A DNA stretch of 64,000 bases from Aurantimicrobium sp. INA4 (lineage in GTDB: Bacteria; Actinomycetota; Actinomycetes; Actinomycetales; Microbacteriaceae), in the NCBI RefSeq assembly GCF_027924525.1, contig NZ_AP027040.1, forward strand, positions 372,001 to 436,000, written 5' to 3'. A model generated the notes under the pieces. It did no database searches, had not been told where the DNA came from, and saw only the letters and a program-made list of their open reading frames with translations. A program made the translations under genes and the position numbers. Below are positions 7,626 to 26,420 of the stretch, in pieces (positions within the stretch are counted from its first letter, which is position 1; every line of letters starts with the position of its first letter).

Positions 7626-7641
7626 TTCTACCAGTGAGCGC

Positions 7642-7668: not shown

Positions 7669-7743
7669 TGTGTTCACTCCGCTAACTCCCCGTGAGGGGA
7701 TTGCGTTGGGTAACATGACCATGAGGCACTCAACGAGGTGGTG

Positions 7744-8514
7744 ATGGTGGCACACAACAAAGCTGAAACAGCTGAATCCAGCAGTGTCACCTCGCGTGCA
7801 CTGTCGGTGCTCTCTGCTTTTGAGAATTCTCCTGGCGCACTCTCTGTTGCCCGCATTTCTCAGCGCTCTGGTTTGCCCCTGTCCACCACCTACCGTCTCG
7901 TGCACGAGCTTGAAGAGTGGGGCGGTCTGGATAAGACCTCCGATGGTAAATATCAGGTGGGAATGCGCATCTGGGAGTTGGGCCAGTTAGCTGGTCGTCG
8001 TTTACGCGACCGTGCTCACCCTTTCTTGCAGGATCTTTTTGATCTCACTCACGAGAACGTACACATGGCTGTGCGCGAGGGAACCCAGACGCTCTATACC
8101 GACAAGATTTATGGCTCCCGCAAAGTTCCCCTCATTTCACGCGTGGGCGGCAGGCTGCCCCTGCATGCCACGGCCGTAGGCCGTGTGCTGTTGGCAGCCC
8201 AACCTGAATGGTTTATCGAGGCCTATTTCGAGCGTGAATTGGAAACTCCCACACCGAAAACGGTGGTCGACCCTGAGATTCTTCGTGCCGAAATAGATGA
8301 GGTACAGCGCACCGGGTATTCCATCACGATTGAGCAAATGCGTGTGGGGCAGTTCTCTCTGGCGCTGCCGGTCATTGTTGAAGGCCAGACCATCGCTGCG
8401 GTGGGTATGGTGCTCGATAAGGCAAAGATTGGTGAGGTGCGCCGCTTGATGCCGTTGATGCGAGGAACGGTCGAAAGCATACAATCTTCGATGTCTGGCC
8501 GAACAATTCGCTAA
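7744..8514 (+). CDS. IclR family transcriptional regulator (island regulator 1)
   Basis: A 256-residue IclR-type regulator. The N-terminal winged helix-turn-helix covers about 12-72 (ARISQRSGLPLSTTYRLV), and the C-terminal ligand-binding domain about 85-250 has LISRVGGRLPLHATAVGR and the family end motif. The ATG at 7744 is chosen over GTGs at 7738 and 7741 because GAGG at 7735-7738 is then correctly spaced. It is transcribed toward the P450 operon, whose upstream region carries an inverted repeat at 8572-8588. It probably controls that operon; many IclR proteins regulate aromatic catabolism and respond to pathway intermediates. Confidence 0.9.
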   Translation: MVAHNKAETAESSSVTSRALSVLSAFENSPGALSVARISQRSGLPLSTTYRLVHELEEWGGLDKTSDGKYQVGMRIWELGQLAGRRLRDRAHPFLQDLFDLTHENVHMAVREGTQTLYTDKIYGSRKVPLISRVGGRLPLHATAVGRVLLAAQPEWFIEAYFERELETPTPKTVVDPEILRAEIDEVQRTGYSITIEQMRVGQFSLALPVIVEGQTIAAVGMVLDKAKIGEVRRLMPLMRGTVESIQSSMSGRTIR

Positions 8515-8571
8515 CTATTTTCCTACCTTTTCCGCGTATTTACGGGGGTGAGGAAAATTCTTTCAATGTCA

Positions 8572-8588
8572 TTCTCATTCAGTGAGAA
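8572..8588. promoter_or_regulatory. Inverted repeat, candidate operator of the P450 operon
   Basis: TTCTCA and TGAGAA form a perfect 6-base inverted repeat with a 5-base spacer, 66 bases before the P450 ATG. Its location between an IclR gene and the operon it likely controls makes it the best operator candidate in this 139-base gap. Confidence 0.45.
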
Positions 8589-8653
8589 ACATGTCTATCT
8601 GTTTACCTCCGACAGGTCGACTATGTAAATAAGCAGTTCAAGGAGGAACGCAC

Positions 8654-9880
8654 ATGGGTGCAACCACATACCACGGATACGAGCCCTTCGACATGAAGGA
8701 TCCCTTCCCCGCTTATGCTGAGCTTCGCCGTGAAGAGCCCGTGATGTATGACGACCGCATCGGATACTACGTTGTCTCACGTTATGACGACGTGAAAGCA
8801 GTTTTCGAGGACTGGGAGAGCTTCTCCTCTGAGAACGCTCAGGCTCCTGTTCGCCCTATGGGTGCACCTGCCAAAAAGATCATGGAAGAAGGCGGCTTCA
8901 CCGCCTACTCCGGATTATCCGCTCGCATTCCGCCAGAGCACACCCGTATTCGCTCCATCGCCTCCAAGGCGTTCACTCCTCGCCGCTACAAAGTTCTCGA
9001 ACCAGCTATTCGCGAAAACGTCGACATCATGATTGACAAGATGCTCGCCGCGGGAGAACCCGGAGACATTCTCAGCGACATCGCCAACGACCTGCCCACA
9101 ATCACCATCCTGACCTTGTTTGGTGTTCCCATTTCTCGCATTCCTGAAATCAAGAAGTGGTCGGGTAGCCGTGCCTTAATGACGTGGGCAGAGCTCACCG
9201 ATGAAGAACAGATTCCTCACGCACACAACCTCGTTGAGTATTGGAACTTCTGCCAGGAAGTTGTGGCCAACAACAAGGCAAACCCCGGACAAGACAACCT
9301 CGCTGCAGACCTGTTGAAGCTTCAGGCTGAGGGCAACGACATCTCTGACCACGAAATTGCATCCCTGCTGTACTCGATGCTCTTCGCTGGCCACGAAACC
9401 ACCACCACCTTGATCTCAAACTCACTGCGCATGTTGCTGTCGAACCCTGAGACCTATCAAGCTCTCGTGGAAGACCCCGAGAAGATTCCAGGCGCCATTG
9501 ACGAGGTGCTGCGCATGGCAGGAAGCATTGTGGCTTGGCGTCGCAAGGCAACCCGCGATGCAGAAATCGCCGGAGTCAAGATTCCTGAAGGATCTGGTGT
9601 TCTTCTGCTCATGGGCTCGGCAAACCGCGATGCCAGCGTGTTTGAGAACCCCGATGTATTCGACATCGGCCGCGAAAATGCCCGTAACCACATGTCTTTC
9701 GGTTACGGAATCCACTTCTGCCTCGGAAACCTCCTTGCGAAACTGCAGGGCAAGGTTGCTTTGGAAGAAATCACCAAGAAAATTCCAACCCTGCGACTGA
9801 TGCCAGGAGCAGACATTAACTTCATCGAAAACCTCTCCTTCCGGGTACCAACGTCGGTACCAGTTGAGTGGACCAAGTAA
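8654..9880 (+). CDS. creJ: Cytochrome P450, CreJ-like (aryl-phosphate methyl hydroxylase)
   Basis: A 408-residue soluble class I P450. The heme loop is FGYGIHFCLG with the thiolate Cys at residue 356. The I-helix oxygen-activation motif is AGHETTTT near 245, and ExxR is EVLR near 284. A strong ribosome binding site, AAGGAGG, precedes the ATG. It is first in an operon whose other genes match the Corynebacterium glutamicum Cre set. There CreJ oxidises the methyl group of 4-methylphenyl phosphate stepwise, and a dedicated ferredoxin and reductase, also present here, supply electrons. The substrate assignment comes from this context; the P450 alone would be called only by family. Confidence 0.85.
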   Translation: MGATTYHGYEPFDMKDPFPAYAELRREEPVMYDDRIGYYVVSRYDDVKAVFEDWESFSSENAQAPVRPMGAPAKKIMEEGGFTAYSGLSARIPPEHTRIRSIASKAFTPRRYKVLEPAIRENVDIMIDKMLAAGEPGDILSDIANDLPTITILTLFGVPISRIPEIKKWSGSRALMTWAELTDEEQIPHAHNLVEYWNFCQEVVANNKANPGQDNLAADLLKLQAEGNDISDHEIASLLYSMLFAGHETTTTLISNSLRMLLSNPETYQALVEDPEKIPGAIDEVLRMAGSIVAWRRKATRDAEIAGVKIPEGSGVLLLMGSANRDASVFENPDVFDIGRENARNHMSFGYGIHFCLGNLLAKLQGKVALEEITKKIPTLRLMPGADINFIENLSFRVPTSVPVEWTK

Positions 9881-9889
9881 AGGAAAACC

Positions 9890-10960
9890 ATGGGAAAGTA
9901 CACCTTCGCTTTTGACAGCACAGAAACTCCAGAACACGACCGTCTAGGCGGCAAGTGCACCAGCCTGGCCATCATGACCAGCGCAGGTATGCCTGTCCCT
10001 CCCGGGTTCGCCGTGACCACTGACGCATTTGATGCAGTGATGAACCAGACCACACTGCGCGATCACATTGTGAAACACCTCGAAGGCCTTGACCCCAACG
10101 ATGTGACTGACGTAGACACCCGGGCAGCTCACATCCGCGAACTGATCATGACCCAGGAAGTTCCTGCTGATGTGCGCGATGAAACCATCGCTGCTTACAA
10201 GAAGCTCATGGACTTGTGTGGTGGCGAAGTACCTGTCGCCGTACGCTCCAGTGCTACCGCTGAAGATCTGCCTGACGCAAGCTTCGCTGGACAGCAGGAC
10301 ACCTACCTCTGGATTATTGGCCAAGAGGCTGTCATGCAGAAGATTCGTGAATGCTGGGCATCGCTGTACACCGCGCGTGCAATCACCTACCGCATGGCAA
10401 ACAACATCCCCGATGAGGGTCTGTCAATGGCTGTTGCTGTTCAGAAGATGGTCAACTCTCGCACTTCCGGTGTAGCCATGACCATTGACCCCAGCAACGG
10501 TGACAAGTCCAAGATTGTTGTCGACTCCAGCTGGGGCCTGGGCGAGATGGTTGTCTCTGGTGAAGTCACCCCAGATAACTTCCTTATCGACAAAGTCATG
10601 ATGCACATCATCAACCGCACCATTTCAGACAAGCACGAAGAACTCGTGCCTTCAGGTCACGGCACCGTGATTCGCAAGGAAGTCGACGCTGAGCGTCGCA
10701 ACAGCCCCAGCCTCAGCGATGAAGAGCTGATTCAGGTCGCAACTTTGGCTAAGGCTGCGCACAAACACTACGGAACAGTTCAGGACATTGAGTGGGCCAT
10801 CGACGCCGACCTTCCTGCAGGTTCCAACGTTCTCCTTCTGCAAAGCCGCCCCGAAACGGTGTGGTCGCAGAAGAAGCAGGAAGTGAAAATCACTTCCACC
10901 GGTTCCGGTATTGAAGCGATCACAAAGTCGCTGATGGCCCAAATCGGAGACCGCAAGTAA
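9890..10960 (+). CDS. PEP-synthase N-terminal (ATP-binding) domain protein, alkylphenol phosphorylation subunit
   Basis: A 356-residue protein equal to the ATP-grasp half of PEP synthase/PPDK. LGGKCTSLAIMTSAGMPVPPGFAVTT opens the domain in the usual way; VAVRSSATAEDLPDASFAGQ holds the nucleotide-binding Arg, and LLQSRPETVW ends the ATP-binding part. The phospho-His and PEP/pyruvate domains are absent and lie on the next gene. This split is known from phenylphosphate synthase of Thauera and CreHI of C. glutamicum, where the pair transfers a phosphoryl group from ATP to the phenol hydroxyl. The start is 9 bases after the P450 stop, with AAAGGAAA as ribosome binding site. Confidence 0.82.
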   Translation: MGKYTFAFDSTETPEHDRLGGKCTSLAIMTSAGMPVPPGFAVTTDAFDAVMNQTTLRDHIVKHLEGLDPNDVTDVDTRAAHIRELIMTQEVPADVRDETIAAYKKLMDLCGGEVPVAVRSSATAEDLPDASFAGQQDTYLWIIGQEAVMQKIRECWASLYTARAITYRMANNIPDEGLSMAVAVQKMVNSRTSGVAMTIDPSNGDKSKIVVDSSWGLGEMVVSGEVTPDNFLIDKVMMHIINRTISDKHEELVPSGHGTVIRKEVDAERRNSPSLSDEELIQVATLAKAAHKHYGTVQDIEWAIDADLPAGSNVLLLQSRPETVWSQKKQEVKITSTGSGIEAITKSLMAQIGDRK

Positions 10961-11034
10961 AGCCCCACAACAACGGCAACACCTGCACCACAACCCTGTA
11001 ACACCAGTCTCGACGATGAGAAAGGCACCACCAC

Positions 11035-12882
11035 ATGTTCGGAAAGAAGGCAAAAGCAATGACGCCTAGCGCTGCTCGTAAGAGCTTTGTCTCGCCTTAT
11101 GACCTGCCAGCGCCCAAGGGCGCTGAAGGTTGGCAAGACCTCTACCCATACAACCTTGTATTCCAGGAGAACCTGAAAGACAAGGAAAACGCGAAGTTCT
11201 GGTTCTGCGACTCGCAGCACTGGCCCAACGTGTTCAAGCCATTTGAGACCGTCGGTGTGGAATTCGCCGTACGTTGCCTCGGTGCGTACAACACCCGCCA
11301 CTACATCATCCCTCCAGCAAACGGTATTGAATTCCGTATTCACAACGGTTTCTGCTACATGAGCCCCGTTGCAGTTGCACCTGAGCTCATCGGTGACCGT
11401 GTACCTCACTTCATGGAGCGTGCAGGCTACTACTTCCAGAACTGGAACACCCTGCTCGAAAACTGGAAGAAGAAGGTTCTTGCAACCATCGAAGAGATGG
11501 ATGCCATCAACTTCGAAGCTCTTCCAGACATGGTTGACATTGAGGTCATCACCAGCGGTGCTGGTATTGACCCCACCGCCAAGATGATGGCTGACTACGA
11601 CCGTCTGATCCAGCTGGCATACAAGAACTGGGAGCACCACTTCGAGTTCCTGAACCTCGGTTACGTTGCCTACCTGGACTTCTTCGGCTTCTGCAAGGAA
11701 TCCTTCCCCGGCATCCCCGACTTAGCTATCGCCAAGATGGTGATGGGTGTGGACTCGGTTCTCTTCCGTCCTGATGACGAGCTCAAGGATCTCGCTGAGC
11801 TCGCTGTCAAGCACAACCTCACCGCTGTTTTCGCAAAGAACAACGACGCTGCAGCTACTCTGGCTGAGCTCGAAGGCTCTGCAGATGGCAAGAAGTGGAT
11901 TGCTGCGTGGGAGAAGGCTCAGGAGCCTTGGTTCAACTACACCAGCGGAAACGGTTTCTACGGTTCCGACATTTACTGGCGTGACAACCTAGACCTGCCT
12001 ATGGGCTACATCCAGGACTATGTTGTTCGTGCTGCAAAGGGCGAACAGCTTCACCGCCCCAAGGATGAGCTCATTGCAGAGCGCGACCGCATCACCAGCG
12101 AATACGCTGAACTTCTCGATGGCGAAGCCCTCGAGACCTTCAACGGCAAGCTCGGTCTTGCACGCACTGTGTACCCCTATGTAGAAGACCACAACTTCTA
12201 CATTGAGCACTGGACCATGGGCGTCTTCTGGCGCAAGGTTCGTCAGCTGTCTCGTCTGCTTCACAGCTACGGCTTCTGGACCGAACCAGATGACCTGCTC
12301 TACCTGACCCGCGACGAAGTACGTCCCGTACTGTTCGACCTCGCAACCGGTTGGGGTGTTGGCGCAGACTGCATCGCACCTACCTACTGGCCAGCTGAGA
12401 TCGAGCGTCGTCGCAAGATCGTAGATGCTCTGATGACTGCACGCCCCGAGCCTGCATTCAACGAGCCTCCTGCAGAAATCAACGAGCCATTCACCATCAT
12501 GCTCTGGGGTATCACCACCGAGCAGGTTCAGCAGTGGCTTGGCGCTGAAGAGGGCGACCCCAACCAGCTCAAGGGTATGGCAGCATCCCCTGGTGTTGTT
12601 GAGGGTAAGGCTCGCGTCATCATGGGACCTGAGCAGCTCGATGAGCTCCAGCAGGGTGAAATCCTTGTTGCACCAGTAACCGCACCGAGCTGGGGACCTG
12701 TCTTCGGCAAGATCAGCGCAACTGTGACCGACATCGGTGGAATGATGAGCCACGCGGCTATCGTTTGCCGTGAGTACGGCCTTCCCGCCGTTACCGGTAC
12801 CGGTTCTGCTTCCACCAAGATCAAGACCGGTATGAAGCTTCGAGTCGATGGCTCGAACGGTACCGTCGAGATCATTGGCTAA
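11035..12882 (+). CDS. PEP-utilising phospho-histidine subunit, alkylphenol phosphorylation
   Basis: A 615-residue partner of the preceding ATP-binding subunit. Near the C-terminus, DIGGMMSHAAIVCREYGLPA is the mobile phospho-His domain of PEP synthase-type enzymes, with the phosphorylated His at residue 573. The roughly 480 residues before it are the specific part of the large subunit of phenylphosphate-synthase-like enzymes, which binds the phenol; I see no PEP/pyruvate TIM barrel after the His domain. The ATG at 11035 has a weak upstream site; ATG 11059 follows AGAAGG and is an alternative. Role: formation of aryl phosphate as directing group for the P450. Confidence 0.82.
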   Translation: MFGKKAKAMTPSAARKSFVSPYDLPAPKGAEGWQDLYPYNLVFQENLKDKENAKFWFCDSQHWPNVFKPFETVGVEFAVRCLGAYNTRHYIIPPANGIEFRIHNGFCYMSPVAVAPELIGDRVPHFMERAGYYFQNWNTLLENWKKKVLATIEEMDAINFEALPDMVDIEVITSGAGIDPTAKMMADYDRLIQLAYKNWEHHFEFLNLGYVAYLDFFGFCKESFPGIPDLAIAKMVMGVDSVLFRPDDELKDLAELAVKHNLTAVFAKNNDAAATLAELEGSADGKKWIAAWEKAQEPWFNYTSGNGFYGSDIYWRDNLDLPMGYIQDYVVRAAKGEQLHRPKDELIAERDRITSEYAELLDGEALETFNGKLGLARTVYPYVEDHNFYIEHWTMGVFWRKVRQLSRLLHSYGFWTEPDDLLYLTRDEVRPVLFDLATGWGVGADCIAPTYWPAEIERRRKIVDALMTARPEPAFNEPPAEINEPFTIMLWGITTEQVQQWLGAEEGDPNQLKGMAASPGVVEGKARVIMGPEQLDELQQGEILVAPVTAPSWGPVFGKISATVTDIGGMMSHAAIVCREYGLPAVTGTGSASTKIKTGMKLRVDGSNGTVEIIG

Positions 12883-12907
12883 GTAAGCAGCCACTAAGGA
12901 ATAAACC

Positions 12908-13621
12908 ATGTCGTCCCCATCCCACTCACCAGTTGTCAATCACCTGGGCCGCGATGTCACCGGAAAAATTCCGGACGCATCTCGAGTCCCCGGGATGATT
13001 GAAATGAACGAGCGGGATGGGGCGATTTGGTCCCTGGCGAAGGATTTCCTTCGCACACGCGATAACGATGCGCACAGCCTGTATGCATATTCGATCGCCC
13101 AAGCTCTGCTCTCACAAATTCCTGAAGCCGATGAAAACATCGTGCTTCCCGCAATTCTTTTGCACGACACTGGCTGGTCAACGGTGGATGAGCGCCTCGC
13201 CCTCGAAGCTATTGCTCCCGGAGCCGATGGTTCCCTCGATCACCTCATCATTCAGCATGAGAAAGAGGGTGCACGCATTGCTCGTGAAATCCTCGAGCAG
13301 GTTGGTGTCCCCGAGGAGGACATCGTCCAGATTGTGGACATCATTGATGGCCACGACACCCGCCTTGTAGCGATGAGCACAAACGACGCCGTCGTGAAAG
13401 ACTCCGACAAGGTCTGGCGCGTCACCCCACACGGTCGCCGTGTCGTGATGGACTGGTTTGGCATTGATGCCGAGCAGTCGCTGCGGTTGTGTGCCTACCG
13501 CGCATATAACGAACTTTTTACTGACCAAGCCAAAGCCATGTCCAGGGTTCTCGTCACCACAGCGTGCATGGACTATATGGATGAACTGGCTAATACGTAC
13601 ACCCGAGAGGACCTCGCCTAA
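12908..13621 (+). CDS. creD: HD-domain phosphohydrolase, CreD-like (copy 1)
   Basis: A 237-residue HD-superfamily metal phosphohydrolase. The motif ILLHDTGWSTVDE carries the His-Asp pair at 86-87. HDTR in VDIIDGHDTR and the later DSDKVWRV give further metal ligands. In the Cre system an HD-type enzyme removes the phosphate once the side chain is oxidised, releasing 4-hydroxybenzoate or its precursors. The protein is clearly paralogous to the HD protein at 15993-16655: they share LRTR.ND, ILLHDTGW, IAREVL/IAREIL and IIDGHDT. The ribosome binding site is AAGGAATA. The stop overlaps the next start (TAATG). Confidence 0.8.
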   Translation: MSSPSHSPVVNHLGRDVTGKIPDASRVPGMIEMNERDGAIWSLAKDFLRTRDNDAHSLYAYSIAQALLSQIPEADENIVLPAILLHDTGWSTVDERLALEAIAPGADGSLDHLIIQHEKEGARIAREILEQVGVPEEDIVQIVDIIDGHDTRLVAMSTNDAVVKDSDKVWRVTPHGRRVVMDWFGIDAEQSLRLCAYRAYNELFTDQAKAMSRVLVTTACMDYMDELANTYTREDLA

Positions 13622-14379
13622 TGGCCACAGATCAATTTGAGGGCAAAGTTGTCATCGTCACCGGTGCAGCTGGCGGCCTCGGTCGCGCATTTGCGCAGGG
13701 TTTTGCTGCCGAGGGTGCACAGCTTGTTGTGGCTGATATTGACCTCGCTGGTGTGGAAGAAACTGCAGCGATGCTGACCGCCTCTGGCGCAGCAGCAATC
13801 GCTGTCAAGGTAGATGTCACCAACAAAGAATCCACCGATGCCCTCGCTCAGGCAGCCATCGATGCTTTTGGTCGCATTGATGTGCTCATCAACAACGCGG
13901 CCATCTATGCAACATTGACCCGCAAGCCTTTTACCGAGATTGACCCCGCTGAATGGGATCGCGTCATGAACGTGAACGTCAAGGGCGCGTGGCTGTGTTC
14001 GGCCTCGGTATATCCACGGATGACACAACCAGGTGGCCGCATTGTGAACATTGCCTCCGCCACCGTCTTCAGTGGCTCACCTTTATGGATGCACTATGTC
14101 GCATCTAAGGGTGCCGTGATTGGTATGACCCGCGTCATGGCACGAGAGGTTGGACCCCAGGGTGTCACCGTTAACGCCATTGCACCCGGCTTTACGCTCA
14201 CCGAAGCAAGCCTCAGCCTGATGGAAGACGCTGAAACCTATGGTGTTGACCGCGGAGCGATCAAGCGTGCCAGCCAGCCTGAAGACATTGTGGGAACCGC
14301 AATTTTCCTCGCCGGCGAACAGTCCGGATACATCACCGGTCAGACCCTCGTGGTCGATGGCGGCAAACAATTTATCTAA
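13621..14379 (+). CDS. creG: Short-chain dehydrogenase, CreG-like alcohol dehydrogenase
   Basis: A 252-residue classical SDR. The NAD(P)-binding motif is VTGAAGGLGRAF near residue 12, NNAAIY follows near residue 91, and the catalytic YVASK has Tyr159 and Lys163. An Asp at the end of the second strand (ADIDLAG) suggests preference for NAD+. The end ITGQTLVVDGG is the usual family C-terminus. In the Cre context it would oxidise the 4-hydroxymethyl group, made by the P450, to the aldehyde, with the phosphate still attached or after removal. It is translationally coupled to the preceding HD gene. Confidence 0.82.
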   Translation: MATDQFEGKVVIVTGAAGGLGRAFAQGFAAEGAQLVVADIDLAGVEETAAMLTASGAAAIAVKVDVTNKESTDALAQAAIDAFGRIDVLINNAAIYATLTRKPFTEIDPAEWDRVMNVNVKGAWLCSASVYPRMTQPGGRIVNIASATVFSGSPLWMHYVASKGAVIGMTRVMAREVGPQGVTVNAIAPGFTLTEASLSLMEDAETYGVDRGAIKRASQPEDIVGTAIFLAGEQSGYITGQTLVVDGGKQFI

Positions 14380-14416
14380 GAACTCGTACGACAGAAAGAG
14401 ACAACAGGAGTTAGAC

Positions 14417-14737
14417 ATGCCTCACGTAACCTACATTTCCCCCGACGGAACCGAGACCACCCTCGAAGCCCGAGACGGTGACTCCGTGATGGAGATCGCT
14501 GTCAAGAACGGTGTCAAAGGCATCGTCGCAGAGTGCGGTGGCGCATGCTCATGTGCAACCTGCCACGTCTACGTCGATGACGCATTCGTAGATGCTGTCG
14601 GTGAAGTTTCCGACCTCGAGGACGACATGCTCGATGGTGCTGAGTCTGAACGCCTTCCTGTTTCCCGCCTGTCTTGCCAGATCAAGATGTGTGCAGACCT
14701 CGACGGTCTCAAAGTCCGGATCGCCCCTAAGCAGTAA
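14417..14737 (+). CDS. [2Fe-2S] ferredoxin, putidaredoxin type
   Basis: A 106-residue vertebrate/putidaredoxin-type ferredoxin. Cluster ligands are Cys40, Cys46, Cys49 (C-x5-C-x2-C in ECGGACSCATC) and Cys87 (LSC); Cys44 is an extra cysteine. It starts at the ATG at 14417 behind ACAGGAG. It would carry single electrons from the reductase encoded 5 bases downstream to the P450 at the head of the operon, matching the CreE/CreF redox partners. I do not assign E or F because I am unsure which letter belongs to which partner. Confidence 0.93.
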   Translation: MPHVTYISPDGTETTLEARDGDSVMEIAVKNGVKGIVAECGGACSCATCHVYVDDAFVDAVGEVSDLEDDMLDGAESERLPVSRLSCQIKMCADLDGLKVRIAPKQ

Positions 14738-14742
14738 TCATC

Positions 14743-15987
14743 ATGAAAGAAAAGATTCTCATCATCGGTGCCGGCCAAGCCGGCATGCAAATAGCCTCGT
14801 CGCTGCGCGACGAAGGCTATGCCGGTGATGTCACCATCGTGGGCGAGGAAGCATATGCTCCCTATCAACGCCCACCGCTGTCAAAGGCCTATCTGGCCGG
14901 CGAGATGGATGAGGAATCTTTAGAGTTCCGAAACGAACACTTCTATGTTGAGAACAACATTGGCGTGGTGACTGGCGAGCAGATCGAGCATGTTGAGTTT
15001 GGTCCCAACGGGGGAGTAGCCACCGGTCGCTCAGGTAAAACCTACGCATTCGACAAGCTTGCTCTCACCACTGGTGCAGATCCGCGCAAGCTAAAAGTCG
15101 ACGGAGCAGATCTTGACGGGGTGCTGTACATGCGCCACCTCGACGATGCCAAAGAGCTCAAAAAGCGCTGGGATTCCATTACGCACGTCGTTGTTCTCGG
15201 CGGAGGCTTTATTGGTCTCGAGGTTGCTGCCGTTGCGCAAAAGCATGGAAAGAACGTCACCGTGCTGCAATCCGGTAGCAGGCTCATGGGCCGTGCAGTC
15301 TCACCTATCGTGAGTGACTTTTATAAAGCAGCCCATGAAAAACGTGGCACAACCGTCACTCTCAATGCTCAGGTGTCTCACCTTGTTGGCGAAAACGGCA
15401 TGGTAACCGGAGTGCAACTGGCTGACGGTTCTGTCGTTCCAGCAGACATCGTCATGGTGGGTATTGGCGTTACCGCACGCGGTGAACTGGCCGACCAGCT
15501 GGCACTCGAGATGGAAGATGGCGTCATCGTTGTCAATGAATACGCCGAAACTTCCAACCCCAATGTTGTTGCAGCCGGCGATGCAGTAATTTTGCCTCAC
15601 CCTCTTGGCCACGAAGGTCAGGTTCGACTCGAATCTGTTCAGAATGCTGTTGATCAAGCCAAGGTTGCAGCGAAAACCCTCATGGGAATTCGCGAGCCAT
15701 ACCGCGCTGTTCCCTGGTTCTGGTCCGATCAAGCAGATCTCAAACTCCAGATTGCAGGCTTGTCTTCTGGATATGACCAGACCGTTATTCGCGGCGATAT
15801 GGCCGCGGAAAAGTTCTCCGTTCTGTATTACAAGAACGGTTCCCTGTTGGCTATCGACGCTGTCAATGACGTCAGCGACTACATGGCCGTTCGCCGCGCA
15901 CTCACTGCAAGAGCAAACATTCCTGCAGAAGCGGCAGCAGACTCCACCATTGCACTCAAAACGCTCATCACGGGCGGGGAAGCGTAA
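14743..15987 (+). CDS. FAD-dependent ferredoxin reductase
   Basis: A 414-residue NAD(P)H:ferredoxin reductase of the putidaredoxin-reductase family. FAD binding is through IIGAGQAGMQIASSL at the N-terminus, NAD(H) binding through VVVLGGGFIGLEVAAV near residue 150, and the second FAD contact is VVAAGDAV near residue 285. PYQRPPLSKAYL is the typical second motif of this family, and the last 80 residues are the reductase C-terminal dimerisation domain with VPWFWSDQADLKLQ. Together with the ferredoxin it forms the electron supply for the CreJ-like P450. Confidence 0.93.
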   Translation: MKEKILIIGAGQAGMQIASSLRDEGYAGDVTIVGEEAYAPYQRPPLSKAYLAGEMDEESLEFRNEHFYVENNIGVVTGEQIEHVEFGPNGGVATGRSGKTYAFDKLALTTGADPRKLKVDGADLDGVLYMRHLDDAKELKKRWDSITHVVVLGGGFIGLEVAAVAQKHGKNVTVLQSGSRLMGRAVSPIVSDFYKAAHEKRGTTVTLNAQVSHLVGENGMVTGVQLADGSVVPADIVMVGIGVTARGELADQLALEMEDGVIVVNEYAETSNPNVVAAGDAVILPHPLGHEGQVRLESVQNAVDQAKVAAKTLMGIREPYRAVPWFWSDQADLKLQIAGLSSGYDQTVIRGDMAAEKFSVLYYKNGSLLAIDAVNDVSDYMAVRRALTARANIPAEAAADSTIALKTLITGGEA

Positions 15988-15992
15988 AGAAA

Positions 15993-16655
15993 ATGACGAT
16001 GGAATACACGCATGTCCTTGGAGACATCCCGACCCTCGCTAATGGGGCAAGCCCCCGCGGTCAATGGGAAAACCTTGATGCAGTATGGGTGGCAGTTCGC
16101 CCCTACCTGCGCACTCGTGCTAACGACATTCACCTGCCACTGTCGTTCAACTTTGCTGAGCTACTCCTGGACCACCACCCTGAGGCAGATTCACTAGTGA
16201 CTCGTCTTGCGATACTTCTGCACGACACGGGCTGGGCTCGTGTGGATGAAGATCGAATTATCTCTGAGGGTTTCCGTAGTGAGAATGCCATGCAGTCCGA
16301 TGTTCGTGTTCTGCACGAGATCGAGGGTTGCAACATTGCCCGTGAAGTCCTGCCTCCCCTCGGATATAGCGAAGAAGTTGTCGAAGCTGTCTGCAAGATC
16401 ATTGACGGCCACGACACTGACCCCAACCATGACGGCATCGAAGATGCCATCATGCGTGATGCTGACCGCCTTTGGCGTTTCCAGCCCACAGGTATGGCCT
16501 TCTCTGCACTGTGGTTTGGTAAGACACCACAGGAGATTCGCCTCCGTCTGGAAGACACCATCTACGGCCAGCTCATCACTCCCGAGGCGCGCGCCATCGC
16601 AGAAGTAGAACTTGCTCGTTCCATCGAACTGCTCAAACTCGACGTTATTCAGTAA
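15993..16655 (+). CDS. HD-domain phosphohydrolase, CreD-like (copy 2)
   Basis: A 220-residue HD-superfamily protein, second copy in the operon. The HD pair is His77-Asp78 in LAILLHDTGWARVDED, with CKIIDGHDTDPNHD and MRDADRLWRF as later ligand motifs. It is about 20 residues shorter at the N-terminus than copy 1 and diverged, but all visible metal ligands are kept, so it is probably active. Two copies could serve different phosphorylated intermediates, such as alcohol versus acid. The start is 5 bases after the reductase stop; ATG at 15999 is an alternative. The next gene follows 7 bases after the stop. Confidence 0.78.
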   Translation: MTMEYTHVLGDIPTLANGASPRGQWENLDAVWVAVRPYLRTRANDIHLPLSFNFAELLLDHHPEADSLVTRLAILLHDTGWARVDEDRIISEGFRSENAMQSDVRVLHEIEGCNIAREVLPPLGYSEEVVEAVCKIIDGHDTDPNHDGIEDAIMRDADRLWRFQPTGMAFSALWFGKTPQEIRLRLEDTIYGQLITPEARAIAEVELARSIELLKLDVIQ

Positions 16656-16662
16656 GGACATC

Positions 16663-18120
16663 ATGACCACGCTCCAGGAATACCACGACGATAACTTCAT
16701 CAACGGAGATTGGGTTAAGTCCCTCTCTTCCACGAAGATCGAAGTTGTCGATCCTTCCACTGAGGAAGTATGGGGAGCTGTTCCTGCCTCAACCGTTGAA
16801 GACATTGACCGTGCTGTTCAGTCAGCGCACAATGCTTTCCGAGGCTCAGGATGGAGCGATATTGGTGCTCCCGCACGTGCAGAGATGATGATTCGTCTTG
16901 CCGAGGAGTTTGAAGCACGCGCTGAGCGCCTAGCCATGATCATTACGAGTGAAAACGGCACTGGCATCACCGAAACACGTCAGGCTGCAGGTCACGCCGG
17001 CAAGCTCCTGCGCTACTACGCCGGCCTTGCCGACTATGTCGACCAGGTTGATGAGCGTCCTTTCCCCGGCGTTTCTGACCAGTTCACCGAAGTTGTTCGC
17101 CAGCCTCGTGGTGTTGCTGCCTTGATAGCACCTTGGAACTTCCCTGTTGCTCTCGTGATGGTCAAACTTGCTCCCGCACTCATTGCCGGCTGCACAGTGG
17201 TCATCAAGCCTGCATCAGAAACCCCTTTGGATCTGCGCATCCTGATGGAAGCAGCTCAGGCTGCAGGTATTCCTGAGGGTGTGCTCAACCTCATCACCTG
17301 CAGTCGTGATGTTGTTGGTGCCCTGGTAGAACACCCGCTCGTGGCCAAGGTTGCTTTCACCGGTTCCACAGGCGTCGGACGCCTGCTCGCTGAGCAGTGC
17401 GGACGCCTACTTCGCCCGGTCACTCTTGAACTTGGTGGAAAGTCAGCAAGCATCGTGCTTCCTGATGCCAACTTGGACTACTTCGCCTCCATGCTCAACC
17501 GCACGTGTCTGCGTAATACTGGCCAGACCTGCTACAACTCGACTCGTATTCTTGCGCCACGGTCGATGTATAACGAGGTTGTCGATGCTGTTGCAACCGT
17601 CGTGGGAAACACCATCATTGGGGACCCTTTCGACCCTGCGACTGTGTATGGACCTTCTGCTTCAAAGAAGCAGGCAGCCACTGTTGCTGACTACATCCGC
17701 ATCGGGCAGGAAGAAGGCGCTCGAGTTGCTGTGGGTGGTTCGGGAATGCCGGAGGGCATCACTCGTGGCTACTACAACAAGCCCACCGTCTTTGCTGATG
17801 TGAACAACCAGATGCGTGTGGCCCGTGAAGAGATTTTTGGCCCCGTGCTCGTTGTCATTCCTTACGAGGATGAAAATGACGCCGTGAGCATCGCCAACGA
17901 TTCGCCGTTTGGTTTGGGTGGCTCTATCTTCACTGAGGACCCCGAGCACGGCGCTGCACTAGCTCGCCGCATTGAATCAGGTTCTGTGGGTATCAACTTC
18001 TACGGATCTAACCTTGCTGCCCCATTTGGTGGCTGGAAAGATTCAGGAATTGGTATGGAATATGGCCCCGAGGCCATCGGCGCCTACACGCGCATGAAGT
18101 CCATCCACCGCAAGCGCTAA
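16663..18120 (+). CDS. creC: Aldehyde dehydrogenase, CreC-like
   Basis: A 485-residue NAD(P)+-dependent aldehyde dehydrogenase. The catalytic Cys290 lies in NTGQTCYNSTR and the general-base Glu256 in LELGGKSASIVL. PWNFPVALVMVKLAPALIAG and FTGSTGVGR are the cofactor motifs. A start at 16612 would add residues inside the upstream gene; the ATG at 16663 behind AAGGA is preferred. As last gene of the operon it would oxidise 4-hydroxybenzaldehyde or its phosphate to the acid, which PobA then uses. The end is 7 bases from the convergent DUF2218 gene. Confidence 0.88.
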   Translation: MTTLQEYHDDNFINGDWVKSLSSTKIEVVDPSTEEVWGAVPASTVEDIDRAVQSAHNAFRGSGWSDIGAPARAEMMIRLAEEFEARAERLAMIITSENGTGITETRQAAGHAGKLLRYYAGLADYVDQVDERPFPGVSDQFTEVVRQPRGVAALIAPWNFPVALVMVKLAPALIAGCTVVIKPASETPLDLRILMEAAQAAGIPEGVLNLITCSRDVVGALVEHPLVAKVAFTGSTGVGRLLAEQCGRLLRPVTLELGGKSASIVLPDANLDYFASMLNRTCLRNTGQTCYNSTRILAPRSMYNEVVDAVATVVGNTIIGDPFDPATVYGPSASKKQAATVADYIRIGQEEGARVAVGGSGMPEGITRGYYNKPTVFADVNNQMRVAREEIFGPVLVVIPYEDENDAVSIANDSPFGLGGSIFTEDPEHGAALARRIESGSVGINFYGSNLAAPFGGWKDSGIGMEYGPEAIGAYTRMKSIHRKR

Positions 18121-18127
18121 GAACGGG

Positions 18128-18418: not shown

Positions 18419-18449
18419 GTGCTCATTATCCAGTGTTAAGGTGAAAATG

Positions 18450-18486
18450 TTCGAGGCCCCCTTACTGCTGGTCCGGGGGCCTCGAA
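18450..18486 (-). terminator. Terminator of pobA
   Basis: A perfect 12-base stem (TTCGAGGCCCCC / GGGGGCCTCGAA) with a 13-base loop, 11 bases after the pobA stop. On the minus strand it is followed by CATTTTC. It separates pobA from the DUF2218 gene. Confidence 0.75.
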
Positions 18487-18497
18487 GTTTTGTGTGG

Positions 18498-19691
18498 TTA
18501 TGAACGCCAGTCGTCAGCGTCGTAATCCCAGCCCACATAACCCTCAGCGATAAAGGTCTGTCCTGCCAGAGACTCGGTGTGTGAGTAGAGGTCTGCAACT
18601 TGACGGTTCTTATCGAACTCGGTTGCATCCGGTGCGATGTGCAGCATGGTGGTCATCATGTAGGAGTAGTTGGCGGCCTTCCAAATGCGCTTGAGGGCGT
18701 CTTCTTGGTACGTGTCCAAGTACTTTTCAGAACCTGAGCGGTAGTACTCACGCAGTGCTCGGTTGAGCCACAGCACATCACTAAAGGCGAGGTTGAGGCC
18801 CTTGGCTCCGGTGGGAGGAACGGTGTGTGCGGCATCACCCATCAAGAAGACCTTGTTCTTGCGCAGGCTGTCGTGGACGTAGCTGCGGAACTTGAGTACG
18901 TCCTTGCGGAAAATAGGTCCGCGCTTGAGTTCGTGGGTCGCCACACCAGCTTGGAGCTTGTCCCAGATCTGCTCATCGTTGACGGCATTGACATCCATGT
19001 TGGGGTCGCACTGGAAATACATGCGCTGGATGTGTTCGTCACGGGTGGAGATGAGTACGAAGCCTTCTTCGGAGCGGCTGTAGATGAGTTCTTCAGAGCT
19101 GGGTGGTGCTTCCACGAGGATTCCATACCAACCGAAGGGGTATTCACGAGCCATACCGCTGAACTTGTTGCCGGTGACATATTCGCGGGCGATGCTCATC
19201 GAACCGTCAGCACCGATAACAAAATCCGCTGAGATTTCGAATGCTTCACCGGTGGCAGTCTTGCCCACAATCATGGGGCCGTTGGGGCCGTCAACTACTT
19301 TGTCGGCGAGGTGCTCAAACAGGGGAGAGACACCTGCGTTGACGCGGGCCTTGATTTGGTCCTTGAGTACTTCGTGTTGGGGATAGAGATAAACGCCCTT
19401 GCCGGTGAGCGCGGGGAAATCAAAGCGGTGAGCGTGGCCGTCAAAGTGGAACTCGATGCCATCGTGACGCATGGTTTCAACATGCTCACGTGAGACAACG
19501 TCGGTGTCGACGAGAACCTCAACGGCAGGGGATTCAAGAATTCCTGCCTTGACAGTTCCTTCAATGTCTTCGCGGCTGCGGCCGTCGATCACTACCGAAT
19601 CGATGCCGGCGCGCTGGAGGAGGTGTGCAAGCTGGAGTCCTGCGGGGCCAGCGCCCAAAATGCCTACCTGGGTGCGAATACTTGTGGTCAT
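18498..19691 (-). CDS. pobA: 4-hydroxybenzoate 3-monooxygenase (PobA)
   Basis: A 397-residue flavoprotein aromatic hydroxylase converting 4-hydroxybenzoate to protocatechuate with NAD(P)H and O2. The FAD motif is VGILGAGPAGLQLAHLLQ at residues 9-26, the DG fingerprint is FVIGADGSMSIAREYV near residue 155, and the second FAD motif is FLMGDAAHTVPPTGAKGLN near 285. Length matches PobA (about 394). It is transcribed divergently from an IclR regulator across a 111-base gap with an inverted repeat. It links the phenol-oxidation operon to the protocatechuate 4,5-cleavage operon. Confidence 0.95.
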   Translation of the reverse strand: MTTSIRTQVGILGAGPAGLQLAHLLQRAGIDSVVIDGRSREDIEGTVKAGILESPAVEVLVDTDVVSREHVETMRHDGIEFHFDGHAHRFDFPALTGKGVYLYPQHEVLKDQIKARVNAGVSPLFEHLADKVVDGPNGPMIVGKTATGEAFEISADFVIGADGSMSIAREYVTGNKFSGMAREYPFGWYGILVEAPPSSEELIYSRSEEGFVLISTRDEHIQRMYFQCDPNMDVNAVNDEQIWDKLQAGVATHELKRGPIFRKDVLKFRSYVHDSLRKNKVFLMGDAAHTVPPTGAKGLNLAFSDVLWLNRALREYYRSGSEKYLDTYQEDALKRIWKAANYSYMMTTMLHIAPDATEFDKNRQVADLYSHTESLAGQTFIAEGYVGWDYDADDWRS

Positions 19692-19772: not shown

Positions 19773-19802
19773 TGAGATGGAATTTTCAGAAGGGACAACC
19801 TG

Positions 19803-20564
19803 ATGAGCCCTGCACGGGTTGAAAGTGGTGCACCCACAGCGCTGCTGGAGCGAGCCATGGAAATACTTGGATGCTTTGACTCCAAGCACAGCGCCCTCAC
19901 CCTGACGCAGATCGCAGAGATTACGAAGCTTCCCATGTCGACCTGTCACAGGATTGTGGGCACACTCGAACAAGGTGGCTTCCTGAGCAAGGGTGGCGAT
20001 CGTCGTTTCCGGGTAGGGACCAAGCTCTGGACCATTGCCCAGCATGCGCCATTGAGCGAACGTTTACGTGAAAGCGCACTTCCCACCCTGGCTCGACTCT
20101 ATGAAGAGACGGGGGAGAACGTCACGCTTGCCGTTCTCGACCGCGGGCAGGCTCTCTATGTTGACCGTCTGGTTGGTGAGCGCAGTATCCCCACCATCAG
20201 TCGAGCCGGCGGCCACCTTCCGCTGCACACAACGGGTGTGGGCAAAGTATTGCTTGCCTATCAATCCGAGAAAGCTATTGAGCAATATCTGTCTCAACCA
20301 CTTCCTAAGCCCACCCCACAATCCATTACTAACCCGGAAGCCCTGCGAAAAGACCTGGCTGAAGTTCGCAAGAACGGCTACTCGATCACTCGTCAAGAAA
20401 TGACGCGTGGAAGTGGCTCTATCGCTGTTCCCATCGTGCGCAAGGAGAAGTGTGTTGCCGCAGTTGGCGTGATTGTTCACCTCAATAGGCTCGACATCAA
20501 TCGTTTGGTTTCCACCCTGAAAGATGCGGCAGCTTCCATCGCTGCTGAACTCGAGGGTCACTAA
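19803..20564 (+). CDS. IclR family regulator, likely PobR-type (island regulator 2)
   Basis: A 253-residue IclR protein. The winged helix-turn-helix is at about 12-75 (TQIAEITKLPMSTCHRIV), and the effector domain shows ISRAGGHLPLHTTGVGKVL and a C-terminal helical part. It is divergent from pobA and separated by an inverted repeat, the usual arrangement for a PobR-type activator of 4-hydroxybenzoate hydroxylase, though PobR homologs belong to several families. The ATG at 19803 has AGAAGGG upstream. The three IclR proteins of the island share the PLHATGVGKVL-type motif but are otherwise well diverged. Confidence 0.88.
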   Translation: MSPARVESGAPTALLERAMEILGCFDSKHSALTLTQIAEITKLPMSTCHRIVGTLEQGGFLSKGGDRRFRVGTKLWTIAQHAPLSERLRESALPTLARLYEETGENVTLAVLDRGQALYVDRLVGERSIPTISRAGGHLPLHTTGVGKVLLAYQSEKAIEQYLSQPLPKPTPQSITNPEALRKDLAEVRKNGYSITRQEMTRGSGSIAVPIVRKEKCVAAVGVIVHLNRLDINRLVSTLKDAAASIAAELEGH

Positions 20565-21453: not shown

Positions 21454-22242
21454 ATGAGTGAAACGACAGGCACGCGTACCGTCACTGGTCGCGCGCTCGC
21501 CGTCCTCGACACCTTCGATGCCAAGCATCGACGTCAGTCACTAGCTTCCATAGCCAGGCGCGCTGACCTTCCCCTGACGACAACCCACCGTCTCGTTCAC
21601 GAGTTGGAGAAGCAGGACGCCCTAGTTCGTGGTTCCGACGGGGATTATGAAATCGGAAGCAAAATCTGGCGATTAGGAATGCTTGCTTCGGTTCACGCAG
21701 ATCTGCGTGAAGTCGCGCTTCCCTACATGGAAGATGTGTATCAACTCGGCAGTGATGCGGTTCAAATAGCAGTGCTTGATGGTTTCCGCTGTTTGATTGT
21801 GGACCGTATTGCTGGCTCGCGAAGCCTGGAAGTCATGAGTAAGCCTGGTTCCAGGCTTCCTCTTCACGCCACGGGGGTGGGCAAAGTTCTTCTTGCACAC
21901 GGAGGCTCAGAACTGCAGCATGCAGTGTTCAACTCTCTGGATAAGTTCACGGATCAAACCATCACTGATCCGGGTTTATTGGATTCCCAACTCAAATCGA
22001 TTCGCACTCAAGGCTTCGCGTGGACGCGTGAAGAACTCGCGGAGGGAGCAATCTCCATTGCTGTGCCCTTGCGCGGCAAGGGCGGCAACGTGATTGCGGC
22101 GCTGGGAATTGTGGCTCCCAGTGATGGACGCGACTTGGGCAAAATGGTGCCGGTCATGCAGGTCACCGGTGCCGCTCTGTCGCAAAAACTAGTTGAGGCA
22201 GGTCTGGGCGAGACGGTTCGCCCTCAATCCGAGCTAAATTAG
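21454..22242 (+). CDS. IclR family regulator (island regulator 3, lig operon)
   Basis: A 262-residue IclR regulator. The winged helix-turn-helix spans about 10-70 (LASIARRADLPLTTTHRLV), and the effector-binding part has VMSKPGSRLPLHATGVGKVL and AISIAVPLRGKGGNV. It is followed after 99 bases by the protocatechuate 4,5-cleavage operon on the same strand and is the likely regulator of that operon. The inducer could be protocatechuate or a ring-cleavage product. It begins 9 bases after HepT but from its own TAGGCT promoter. Confidence 0.88.
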   Translation: MSETTGTRTVTGRALAVLDTFDAKHRRQSLASIARRADLPLTTTHRLVHELEKQDALVRGSDGDYEIGSKIWRLGMLASVHADLREVALPYMEDVYQLGSDAVQIAVLDGFRCLIVDRIAGSRSLEVMSKPGSRLPLHATGVGKVLLAHGGSELQHAVFNSLDKFTDQTITDPGLLDSQLKSIRTQGFAWTREELAEGAISIAVPLRGKGGNVIAALGIVAPSDGRDLGKMVPVMQVTGAALSQKLVEAGLGETVRPQSELN

Positions 22243-22341: not shown

Positions 22342-23022
22342 ATGGCACGCGTTGTTCGAGGAACACCACGAACCCCACTCGAGATTGTTGACGGCCTTGC
22401 CGCACTCGGATCCGCAACCGTTCATGAGGCCCAGGGCCGTATTGGTCTGTTGAACCGTCGTCTGCGTCCCATTTTCCCCGCCATGATTGCCGGAAACGCG
22501 CTGACCTGTGAAGTTGCCCCCGGCGATAACTGGATGATTCACGTCGCCGTTGAGCAGGCTCAGCCTGGAGACATTCTGGTTGTCACTCCCACCAGCCCCT
22601 GCGACGATGGCTACCTCGGTGACCTTCTCGCCGAGAGTCTGATGGCTCACGGCGTGCGCGGTCTCGTCATTGACGCCGGTGTGCGCGACGTGGCAACACT
22701 GACCGAAATGGGCTTCCCTGTTTGGTCCAAGACCATCAGTTCGCAAGGAACCGTCAAGGAAACTATTGCAAACGTGCAGACTCCCATCTTGATGGCAGAT
22801 CAGCTTGTTCGCCCGGGGGATGTCATCGTGGCTGACATTGACGGCGTCTGCTTGGTCAAGCGCGAAGATGCCGAAAAGGTTCTCAAGGCTGCTCAAGAGC
22901 GCGAAGCAATGGAAGCCGGCAAACGCAAACGTCTGGCTGCGGGTGAACTCGGTCTCGATATTTACAACATGCGCGAGAAGCTCGCGGCTAAGGGACTTGT
23001 TTACGAGGACTACCAGGGATGA
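22342..23022 (+). CDS. ligK: 4-carboxy-4-hydroxy-2-oxoadipate aldolase (LigK, RraA family)
   Basis: A 226-residue class II aldolase of the RraA fold. It splits 4-carboxy-4-hydroxy-2-oxoadipate into pyruvate and oxaloacetate, the last step of protocatechuate 4,5-cleavage, and often also decarboxylates oxaloacetate. The active-site Arg-Asp pair is seen in [13 protein letters not shown] near residues 115-120, and [13 protein letters not shown] is the N-terminal family motif. RraA proteins without enzymatic role are about 160 residues; the longer form here, within a lig operon, supports the aldolase. It is first of seven overlapping genes. Confidence 0.88.
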
Positions 23023-24119
23023 CCAACACTCAAGTAGCCGTCGACTGCGCAGTCATGCGCGGAGGAACATCCAAAGGACTGTTCTTCCTCGCGAGTGATC
23101 TGCCAGCAGATCGCGCTGCCCGAGATACTTTCCTGTTTGCCGCGATGGGGTCACCAGACGTGCGCGAGATTGACGGCATGGGTGGCGGACACCCGCTCAC
23201 CTCCAAGGTTGCCGTTGTCTCGAAGTCTGAGCGAGACGGCATTGATGTGGATTACCTGTTCTTGCAGGTGTGGCCTGACCGCGCTGAGGTCAGCGACCAG
23301 CAGAACTGCGGAAACATCCTGGCAGGTGTGGGCCCCTTTGCTATTGAAAAAGGTTTGGTCCGCGCAGCAGATGGTGTGACTCCCGTTGCCATCTACATGG
23401 AAAACACTGACTCCAAGGCGACTGCTTTTGTCGAGACTCCCGGTGGAGTCGTGAACTATGCCGGCACCGCACGGATTGACGGAGTTCCTGGAACTCACGC
23501 CCCGATCACCATCAACTTTGAAGATGTTGCTGGATCCAGCTGTGGTGCTTTGCTGCCCACCGGCAACATAGTGGATGAGGTTCTCGGTGTGCAGGTGACT
23601 TGCATCGACAACGGCATGCCTGTTGTCTGCCTGAATGCTTCCGACTTCGGCATTACTGGCTATGAAACTCCAGCTGAGCTCGAGGCAAACGCAGAACTCA
23701 AGGCCCGTGTGGAAGCGGTTCGCTTAGAGGTTGGTCCGCTCATGAACTTAGGTGATGTCACCAACAAAACCGTGCCCAAGATGAGCTTGCTAGCGCCAGC
23801 CCAAGACAGTGGCCTCGTCTCTACCCGCACCTTTATTCCTCACCGTGTGCACGAAAGCATCGGTGTTCTCGGTGCTGTCTCTGTTGCGACCGCGTGCATG
23901 CTCGAAGGAAGCGTTGCTGCCCAGATTGCTGGCCTAGACGCAGTGGGCTCGAGCATGGAGATTGAGGTTGAACACCCCACCGGTTTCTTCACCGTCCAGA
24001 TGGAAGTCGATAACTCCTCGGGCACACCTGTTGTGACAAAGTCTGCGCTGCTGCGCACCGCCCGCATGCTCATGCAGGGATCAGTTTTTGTACCTCAAAC
24101 CGCGTGGGAGAACGCATGA
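23019..24119 (+). CDS. 4-oxalomesaconate tautomerase/isomerase, PrpF family (GalD/LigU-like)
   Basis: A 366-residue protein of the PrpF fold, two diaminopimelate-epimerase-like halves. [17 protein letters not shown] at the N-terminus is the family signature, with [19 protein letters not shown] further on. In protocatechuate or gallate routes such proteins convert the keto and enol forms of 4-oxalomesaconate (GalD) or shift its double bond (LigU) before hydration. Sequence alone does not separate the two. It overlaps ligK by 4 bases and ligJ by 4 bases (ATGA). Confidence 0.85.
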
Positions 24120-26021: not shown

Positions 26022-26420
26022 ATGAAGCCCAACTTTGAGCAGTACAAGGACATTCCAGGAACGACCATCTTCACTATTGAGTTGGCTCGTCAAGGTTTCC
26101 ACCTCAACCAGTTCTGCATGAGCCTGCGTACTGAAGAAAACCGCAAGCGTTTCTTGGCAGATAACCGTGCCTACCTCGACGAGTGGGACATGACCGAAGA
26201 GCAGAAGCAGGCGGTCGTTGACCGTGACTTCCAAAAGATGCTCGACCTGGGCGGAAATGTCTACTTCCTGTCCAAGATTTTCGCGTCAGAAGGACTGTCC
26301 TATGTTCAAGCCGTCAGCACAATGACGGATATGAACGTGGAGGAATACCAGCAGATGATGCTGGACGGCGGCCGCAATATTGAAGGATGGCGTTCAAAGA
26401 AGGAACGAGGCGAAGCATAA
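26022..26420 (+). CDS. ligA: Protocatechuate 4,5-dioxygenase alpha subunit (LigA)
   Basis: A 132-residue small helical subunit of the extradiol dioxygenase. Seen are IFTIELARQGFHLNQFCMSL, LTEEQKQAV-like MTEEQKQAVVDRDF and LGGNVYFLSKIFASEGLSYV, all typical of LigA. It has no metal site itself but closes the active-site pocket of LigB. It starts 2 bases after the ligI stop and overlaps ligB by one base (TAATG), so the two subunits are translationally coupled. Confidence 0.93.
   Translation: MKPNFEQYKDIPGTTIFTIELARQGFHLNQFCMSLRTEENRKRFLADNRAYLDEWDMTEEQKQAVVDRDFQKMLDLGGNVYFLSKIFASEGLSYVQAVSTMTDMNVEEYQQMMLDGGRNIEGWRSKKERGEA

Follow-up and report, generated by a model that had tools for sequence, protein, structure and literature searches.

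Does a planktonic actinobacterium with a streamlined genome oxidise alkylphenols by phosphate-directed chemistry, as Corynebacterium glutamicum does with its Cre enzymes? The question is raised by nine open reading frames (ORFs) at positions 8654-18120 of a 64,000-nucleotide stretch of Aurantimicrobium sp. INA4 (contig NZ_AP027040.1, positions 372,001 to 436,000; hereafter the window, whose own numbering is used throughout), for which an earlier note, made from the letters alone, had proposed this chemistry. The genome forms one contig of 1,581,031 bases with a completeness of 100. Judged by sequence comparison, the cluster very probably encodes the Cre pathway, in which p-cresol or a close 4-alkylphenol would undergo phosphate-directed oxidation. 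The system itself is of a known kind; what is new is a conserved second HD gene, here called HDx, that is missing from the laboratory model, together with a junction of cre and 4,5-cleavage genes in a minimal genome and a candidate operator. The guess of a streamlined planktonic-type actinobacterium, also made in the earlier note, fits both the 1.58-Mb Aurantimicrobium genome and what is described of A. minutum KNC, a planktonic ultramicrobacterium whose genome, at 1,622,386 bp, is streamlined (PMC4929513; this and the other papers cited by PMC number are drawn on in part).

All nine ORFs lie on the + strand in the order creJ-I-H-HDx-G-F-E-D-C, tightly packed and with frames open throughout. 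The gaps from creJ to creC are 9, 74, 25, -1, 37, 5, 5 and 7 nucleotides (nt), the last with a reassigned creC start, in agreement with the earlier picture of co-directional genes with short gaps, and Pfam matches bear out the family that had been proposed for each of the nine proteins. The cytochrome P450 encoded by creJ (8654..9880; Pfam p450) is identical to its C. glutamicum counterpart (locus L118) at 268/399 positions by local alignment and carries heme Cys356, as previously called, within FGYGIHFCLG. The ATP-grasp half of the aryl kinase is encoded by creI (9890..10960; PPDK_N, 5.7e-112; 193/320 identical to C. glutamicum) and the substrate-binding and phospho-His swivel half by creH (11035..12882; PEP-utilizers swivel domain, 2.5e-23; 402/616), in which residues 565-573, TDIGGMMSH, match the swivel motif T/SxxGGxxxH of the two-component kinase (PMC12167813) and end in the predicted phospho-histidine, His573. 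HDx (12908..13621; Pfam HD) is followed by creG, a short-chain alcohol dehydrogenase (SDR; 13621..14379; adh_short_C2, 6.3e-62; 163/245), creF, a [2Fe-2S] ferredoxin of 106 amino acids (aa) (14417..14737; Fer2, 4.9e-12; 53/96), and creE, a ferredoxin reductase (14743..15987; Pyr_redox_2, 2.9e-63, and Reductase_C, 3.5e-30; 200/408). The HD phosphohydrolase gene creD (15993..16655; Pfam HD) holds the same relative position as in C. glutamicum, and its product (103/212) falls with C. glutamicum CreD in one clade (support 100/99). For the aldehyde dehydrogenase gene creC (16663..18120; Aldedh, 2.5e-151 when scanned from 16612; 252/481) the ORF points to ATG 16663 as the more probable start, in preference to TTG 16612, and for creF a start at 14417 is more likely than one at 14240, which would give a 165-aa ORF.

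In total, the comparison of each protein with the C. glutamicum Cre set matched all eight counterparts (C, D, E, F, G, H, I and J) at 49-67% identity. The window order reversed, C-D-E-F-G-[HDx]-H-I-J, is the C. glutamicum order with one insertion; the C. glutamicum stretch is partly masked, with the masking outside the matches of the eight cre genes. The CreJ-type P450, the CreH and CreI kinase halves, CreE with CreF, CreG with CreC, CreD and the cluster order are thus all present, and the proposal of the same chemistry here proves largely right by sequence.

The identity of the P450 finds additional support in structural entries. The creJ product scores 619 bits against PDB 5xjn/7ccf (67% identity) and 616 against 5gwe, with the next chain at 246 bits. 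These entries label the molecule as cytochrome P450 only, and we take it to be CreJ of C. glutamicum. This agrees with a 100% match of the PDB chain to genome G840, where the gene lies within an eight-gene cluster whose order agrees with the creC-creJ order listed in PMC7764795. In public sources the window P450 is 97% identical to Aurantimicrobium proteins and up to 99% identical to others.

A scan of genome contigs confirmed 574 relatives, of which the best 80 loci were counted, with I, H and D taken as present if the match covered at least 70% of the query; the loci compared are not independent events. A P450 at least 45% identical to the window CreJ occurs in 58 of these 80 loci, and CreI, CreH and CreD accompany it in 53. 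The five without the full set are L022 and L023 (contigs of ~3 kb), L046 (which ends at a contig end), L048 and L049. The P450s of the other 22 loci are at most 39% identical, and none of the 22 has I, H, D, HDx, E or F. The best relatives of the cluster were therefore not found in unrelated clusters, the outcome named earlier as speaking against the Cre assignment. As a side observation, L048 and L049 each hold a CreJ-like P450 (57-58% identical) and no full CreH/CreI kinase downstream.

In whole-genome searches, which scored a limited number of candidates per genome so that misses are not absolute, CreJ was detected in 4 of 394 sampled genomes of the class (the window's own included), in 13 of 242 genomes of Corynebacterium, the genus of C. 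glutamicum, and in 12 of 301 genomes of the Rhodococcus tukisamuensis family (that genome included). Full-length CreH, 76-100% identical, was present in all eight genomes of the window's genus that were examined, the window's included, with HDx and G adjoining in each. In the class the cluster is therefore rare, but no examined genome of the genus lacks it. Two stretches of viral contigs matched the search pattern, and neither encodes a relative. The window groups with Rhodoluna, Alpinimonas and other planktonic Microbacteriaceae (at least ten of the rows listed) when J, H, I and E are each placed in a tree; in the J tree the fork holding these has a support of 93/89, below the star threshold. 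Two divergent cre versions were observed inside the one genus (G000-G007; loci L001-L007, L009 and L101): by CreH, G000, G002, G004, G005 and G007 are 97-100% identical to the window, and G001, G003 and G006 76-78%. In the J and H trees L027 and L101, which carry the second version, cluster with Alpinimonas and other genera (100/99) and apart from the first; this topology suggests a possible exchange of the cluster among planktonic Microbacteriaceae. Rhodoluna joins the first version in the H tree (100/97) and falls outside both in J, I and E.

The earlier note had counted both HD proteins in its Cre-like operon. Both are Pfam HD proteins and one is the CreD counterpart, but the second HD gene lies outside the C. 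glutamicum set. HDx has the HD hydrolase fold with its HD residues intact, and H56, H86, D87, H117, H149 and D167 are invariant in 50 sequences. Within the window, HDx and CreD are paralogues, identical at 72/199 positions (36%) with an hhalign profile E-value of 6.6e-58. When 42 HD proteins of these loci are placed in one tree, the two lie on opposite sides of a branch with a support of 100/99, and as each clade spans Actinomycetota, Pseudomonadota and Bacteroidota, the duplication would seem to be no younger than the spread of the cluster. D is present in every one of the 53 loci with J, I and H, and HDx in 34. The position of HDx varies. In planktonic Microbacteriaceae it stands between H and G; in other actinobacteria it lies on one side or the other of the IclR gene, or comes after creC; in Pseudomonadota and Bacteroidota it follows D and C and precedes G.

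Across the 28 CreJ-bearing whole genomes (all hits of the three samples above minus the window's own), HDx was found in 11: in 9 of 12 from the Rhodococcus family, in 2 of 3 others and in none of the 13 Cre-bearing Corynebacterium genomes, where the sole match is the D-type protein at 37-39% identity. In the class sample, the four CreJ genomes and no others have HDx/D-type proteins (E-value up to 1e-15), G288 having the D-type only, which means that neither gene serves general housekeeping there. The laboratory model therefore does without a part that is conserved in three phyla. To the proposal that HDx is a second aryl-phosphate hydrolase, working at another oxidation level than CreD, we give an even chance on this sequence evidence. 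Somewhat more tentative is a wider scenario, in which ancestral Cre would have used CreD and HDx as stage-specific enzymes for different side-chain oxidation levels, Corynebacterium would represent a reduced form after loss of HDx, and freshwater Microbacteriaceae would keep the two-phosphatase form within the operon behind one IclR operator.

Sequence establishes that the eight Cre genes are orthologous and in the same order, that an HD gene has been added to them, and that the core lig genes and the palindrome are present; substrate, flux and regulation we infer as follows. CreI would draw phosphate from ATP, and the swivel histidine of CreH would hand it on to the oxygen of the phenol. The P450 CreJ would then work with CreE and CreF to oxidise the aryl phosphate at its methyl group, the alcohol and aldehyde stages being completed with the help of CreG and CreC, before the HD phosphohydrolases would strip the phosphate to give 4-hydroxybenzoate. 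How CreHI and the Cre oxidation system work biochemically is described in PMC12167813, PMC7764795, PMC9549646 and PMC8796525. From there PobA would form protocatechuate, and LigAB, LigC, LigI, LigJ, a tautomerase and LigK would carry it to pyruvate and oxaloacetate.

The unit reaches past 8654-18120, with pobA and lig genes downstream and an IclR gene and an operator-like palindrome upstream. The 4-hydroxybenzoate 3-monooxygenase gene pobA lies on the - strand (18498..19691; NF006091, 442 bits, cut-off 351). The remaining genes are on the + strand: two IclR-family regulators of PcaR/PcaU/PobR-like type (19803..20564 and 21454..22242; best NCBIfam match TIGR02431 for both, below cut-off), a LigK-type 4-carboxy-4-hydroxy-2-oxoadipate aldolase (22342..23022; TIGR02798, 310, cut-off 304.5; NF006731, 339, cut-off 179), a 4-oxalomesaconate tautomerase (23019..24119; NF033377, 525 bits, cut-off 440), two amidohydrolases (both Amidohydro_2), namely a putative LigJ-type 4-oxalomesaconate hydratase assigned by position (24104..25135; no NCBIfam match at 1e-20) and a putative LigI-type 2-pyrone-4,6-dicarboxylate hydrolase (25132..26019; NF042924, 237 bits, below its cut-off of 500), the protocatechuate 4,5-dioxygenase alpha and beta subunits LigA (26022..26420; TIGR02792, 172 bits, cut-off 108.6) and LigB (26387..27265; NF009903, 448 bits, cut-off 317), and a GFO/IDH/MocA oxidoreductase that by position would be the LigC-type dehydrogenase (27268..28218; OxRdtase_C, 2.7e-95). 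LigA, LigB, LigK and the tautomerase thus pass curated cut-offs.

A PobA-like match (37-93%) occurs in nine of the 80 loci, all nine Cre-bearing, which fits 4-hydroxybenzoate as the product. LigB is present in all eight genus genomes examined, the G003 match being reported with an internal TGA; it lies within ~16 kb of creH in G000, G002, G004 and G007, at ~25-43 kb in G003, G005 and G006, and on another contig in G001. A second LigB-like gene, 52% identical to the window LigB, was also seen at G003:C1:829479-830300 and G005:C1:1279221-1280042. The best matches to the intradiol dioxygenase family PF00775 reach 195-234 bits in G004, G013 and G019, and in a control set 4 of 14 genomes were positive, C. 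glutamicum among them. Given the lig set and one weak PF00775 match in G000, gene content makes 4,5-cleavage the most likely fate of protocatechuate here.

The IclR-family regulator R0 (7738..8514, +; Pfam IclR_C, 2e-33; HTH_IclR, 1.6e-14) ends 139 nt before the operon, and a homologue adjoins creJ in many related actinobacterial loci. Between R0 and creJ stands the 17-bp palindrome TTCTCATTCAGTGAGAA (8572..8588), a predicted operator to which R0 would bind and through which it probably controls the cre operon. The palindrome core is common to all seven aligned creJ upstream regions of the planktonic clade, and the exact 15-bp core TCTCAYTSARTGAGA is found in 12 of 128 loci compared. With no mismatch allowed, each of the 10 clade genomes (G000-G007, G019 and G053) has a single copy of TTCTCAYTSARTGAGAA, 2446-2541 nt from creH and so directly before creJ, and G013 and G027, the remaining two of the 12 genomes searched, have none; in Rhodoluna (L013) one outer base is changed. 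At up to two mismatches each of the 12 genomes has 1-5 sites, compared with 0-2 for a reversed-pattern control, and G000 holds a two-mismatch copy elsewhere in its genome. At up to three mismatches the window has one site versus 0.58 expected, so the window alone proves nothing and the evidence for an operator is the cross-genome count. Separately, a one-mismatch copy lies directly before pobA in G013 (G013:C1:2745195-2745211; L102), hinting that related IclR regulators may share operators. A promoter scan of 7600-22400 gave 6 sites with 6.9 expected and was uninformative; terminator-like sites in the same scan numbered 23 versus 13.2 expected.

How else might HDx be explained? It could be a partner or regulator of CreD, for example one half of a hetero-oligomer, with no enzyme activity of its own. 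The paralogy of the two proteins (36% identity, hhalign E-value 6.6e-58) and the presence of D in all 34 of the HDx-bearing loci among the 53 with J, I and H would suit such a partnership, which we nevertheless consider unlikely, as all six HD residues of HDx are invariant in the 50 sequences and the two genes also occur apart. D stands without a full HDx match in 19 of the 53 loci (L066 and L072 hold a partial HDx, and L028, L040 and L058 are truncated at a contig end on a side where HDx may lie), and HDx stands without a D-type match in genome G124 (L099), and in locus L049 within its 21 kb. G124, in which a distant kinase pair (44% identical to H, 41% to I) lies on the other strand, offers a natural hint, from a single case, that HDx can dephosphorylate. 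A further alternative is that HDx acts on the aryl phosphate as an HD-fold diiron oxygenase or another non-phosphatase. The six-residue H-HD-H-H-D pattern is found in both dinuclear HD hydrolases and HD oxygenases, and to that extent the motif would allow it; HD oxygenase folds are not among the 50 VIA-align matches listed for HDx, which is no proof of absence, and we regard this alternative as very improbable.

At the level of the whole cluster, the closest competitor to p-cresol oxidation is that the enzymes are of Cre type but serve to oxidise a different para-substituted phenol, for instance 4-ethylphenol, a 4-alkylguaiacol or a phenol from phytoplankton, and only tolerate p-cresol. The pocket comparison proposed in the earlier note, made by sequence segment and not by coordinates with segment borders set from recall, cuts both ways here: the six recognition-like CreJ segments match C. 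glutamicum at 31/39, 10/19, 13/15, 17/18, 8/10 and 11/12 positions, so that five of six are 79-94% identical and above the whole-protein mean of 67% (0.667), but the F region (10/19), the least conserved of them, falls below it, and the preferred alkyl chain may therefore differ. The P450s of other genomes of the genus are only ~65% identical compared with 76-78% for CreH, so CreJ drifts faster, and various p- and m-alkylphenols can serve as substrates of the Cre oxidation system (PMC9549646). On the other hand, pobA beside the cluster fits 4-hydroxybenzoate, the expected product of p-cresol, and a guaiacol substrate would require an O-demethylase, at which no search was aimed. A different principal substrate is accordingly possible but doubtful. 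That the cluster is a functionless relic or a mis-assembled island is extremely improbable. Stops do occur in the matched stretches of relatives (LigB of G003 and G019, CreH of G053), perhaps through decay or alignment past the gene end, but no support for decay was found in the window's own cre genes, whose frames are all open; CreH is full-length in 8/8 genus genomes with HDx and G beside each, and ten clade genomes each keep one exact palindrome. Several further observations weigh against p-cresol catabolism through Cre and 4,5-cleavage as set out here, in addition to the F region of CreJ. CreD, CreE, CreF and CreC share no more than 49-55% identity with their C. glutamicum counterparts; PobA misses the cut-off of the stricter model TIGR02360 (346 vs 539); the putative LigC, LigI and LigJ roles derive from family and position; the PF00775 match of G000, although weak at 57 bits, is over its cut-off, making another ring cleavage conceivable; other routes for p-cresol exist in actinobacteria, Rhodococcus opacus 1CP being described as degrading it with ring hydroxylation first (PMC13101518); and no uptake system was identified, no search having been aimed at one.

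If phosphate-directed oxidation of p-cresol or a close 4-alkylphenol is indeed encoded here, an unusual P450 methyl oxidation that uses a phosphate handle would no longer be confined to a single soil model but would reach freshwater plankton with streamlined genomes, and the predicted route onward to central metabolism would fit into ~20 kb out of 1.58 Mb. That a gene conserved across three phyla is missing from the model pathway raises the question of which aryl phosphate is the substrate of HDx. As natural transformation and targeted gene inactivation are possible in Aurantimicrobium photophilum (PMC11577799), this question may be testable within the genus, if that species carries the cluster. 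Among the titles and abstract openings that a literature search listed, none dealt with cre genes in freshwater actinobacteria or with a second HD gene, which is weak evidence as subscription papers were thinly covered, and the Aurantimicrobium literature searched had no occurrence of 'aromatic' or 'P450'.

Two other features of the window were observed. Upstream of the island, 5179-6786 (+) holds an alpha/beta hydrolase and an HpcH/HpaI-type aldolase/lyase gene, possibly also catabolic. Far downstream, a 4257-aa ORF (47391-60164, +) combines eleven YDG-domain stretches with three of fibronectin type III and one glycine-rich domain; it encodes a giant, probably surface-exposed protein in this streamlined genome.

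Finally, the locus can be placed among known systems. With the Cre system of C. glutamicum (creCDEFGHIJ, cg0637-cg0645; gene names and order in a table of PMC7764795) it has all eight enzymes in common, in the same relative order and at 49-67% identity, and the close relative L119 also has an IclR gene beside creJ. The window differs in the extra HDx between creG and creH and in its downstream pobA and 4,5-cleavage lig set, whereas C. glutamicum is positive for the intradiol family PF00775. The Hpe system (HpeHI, Rhodococcus rhodochrous GD02) likewise uses a two-component aryl kinase of the same family and a phosphate tag that is removed later, but it works with a biotin carboxylase, a NagD-like phosphatase and CoA enzymes, and its table in PMC9618137 lists no P450. 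No Hpe-type carboxylase (hpeCBA) is among the ten proteins of 7738-18120, and the window CreH (402/616) is nearer to C. glutamicum CreH than HpeH is (46%; PMC9618137). The phenylphosphate synthase PpsAB of Thauera and Aromatoleum, likened here by description and not by sequence, is also a two-component dikinase acting on phenol, but it is part of anaerobic phenol catabolism (PMC12167813). In Cre loci of other genera, with flanks of up to ~10 kb, the sole lig-type match is one of 25% to the MocA-type oxidoreductase (L043). The window shares with the Lig 4,5-cleavage pathway LigA, LigB, LigK and a tautomerase that all score over their model cut-offs, and differs in that these genes here adjoin a cre operon.

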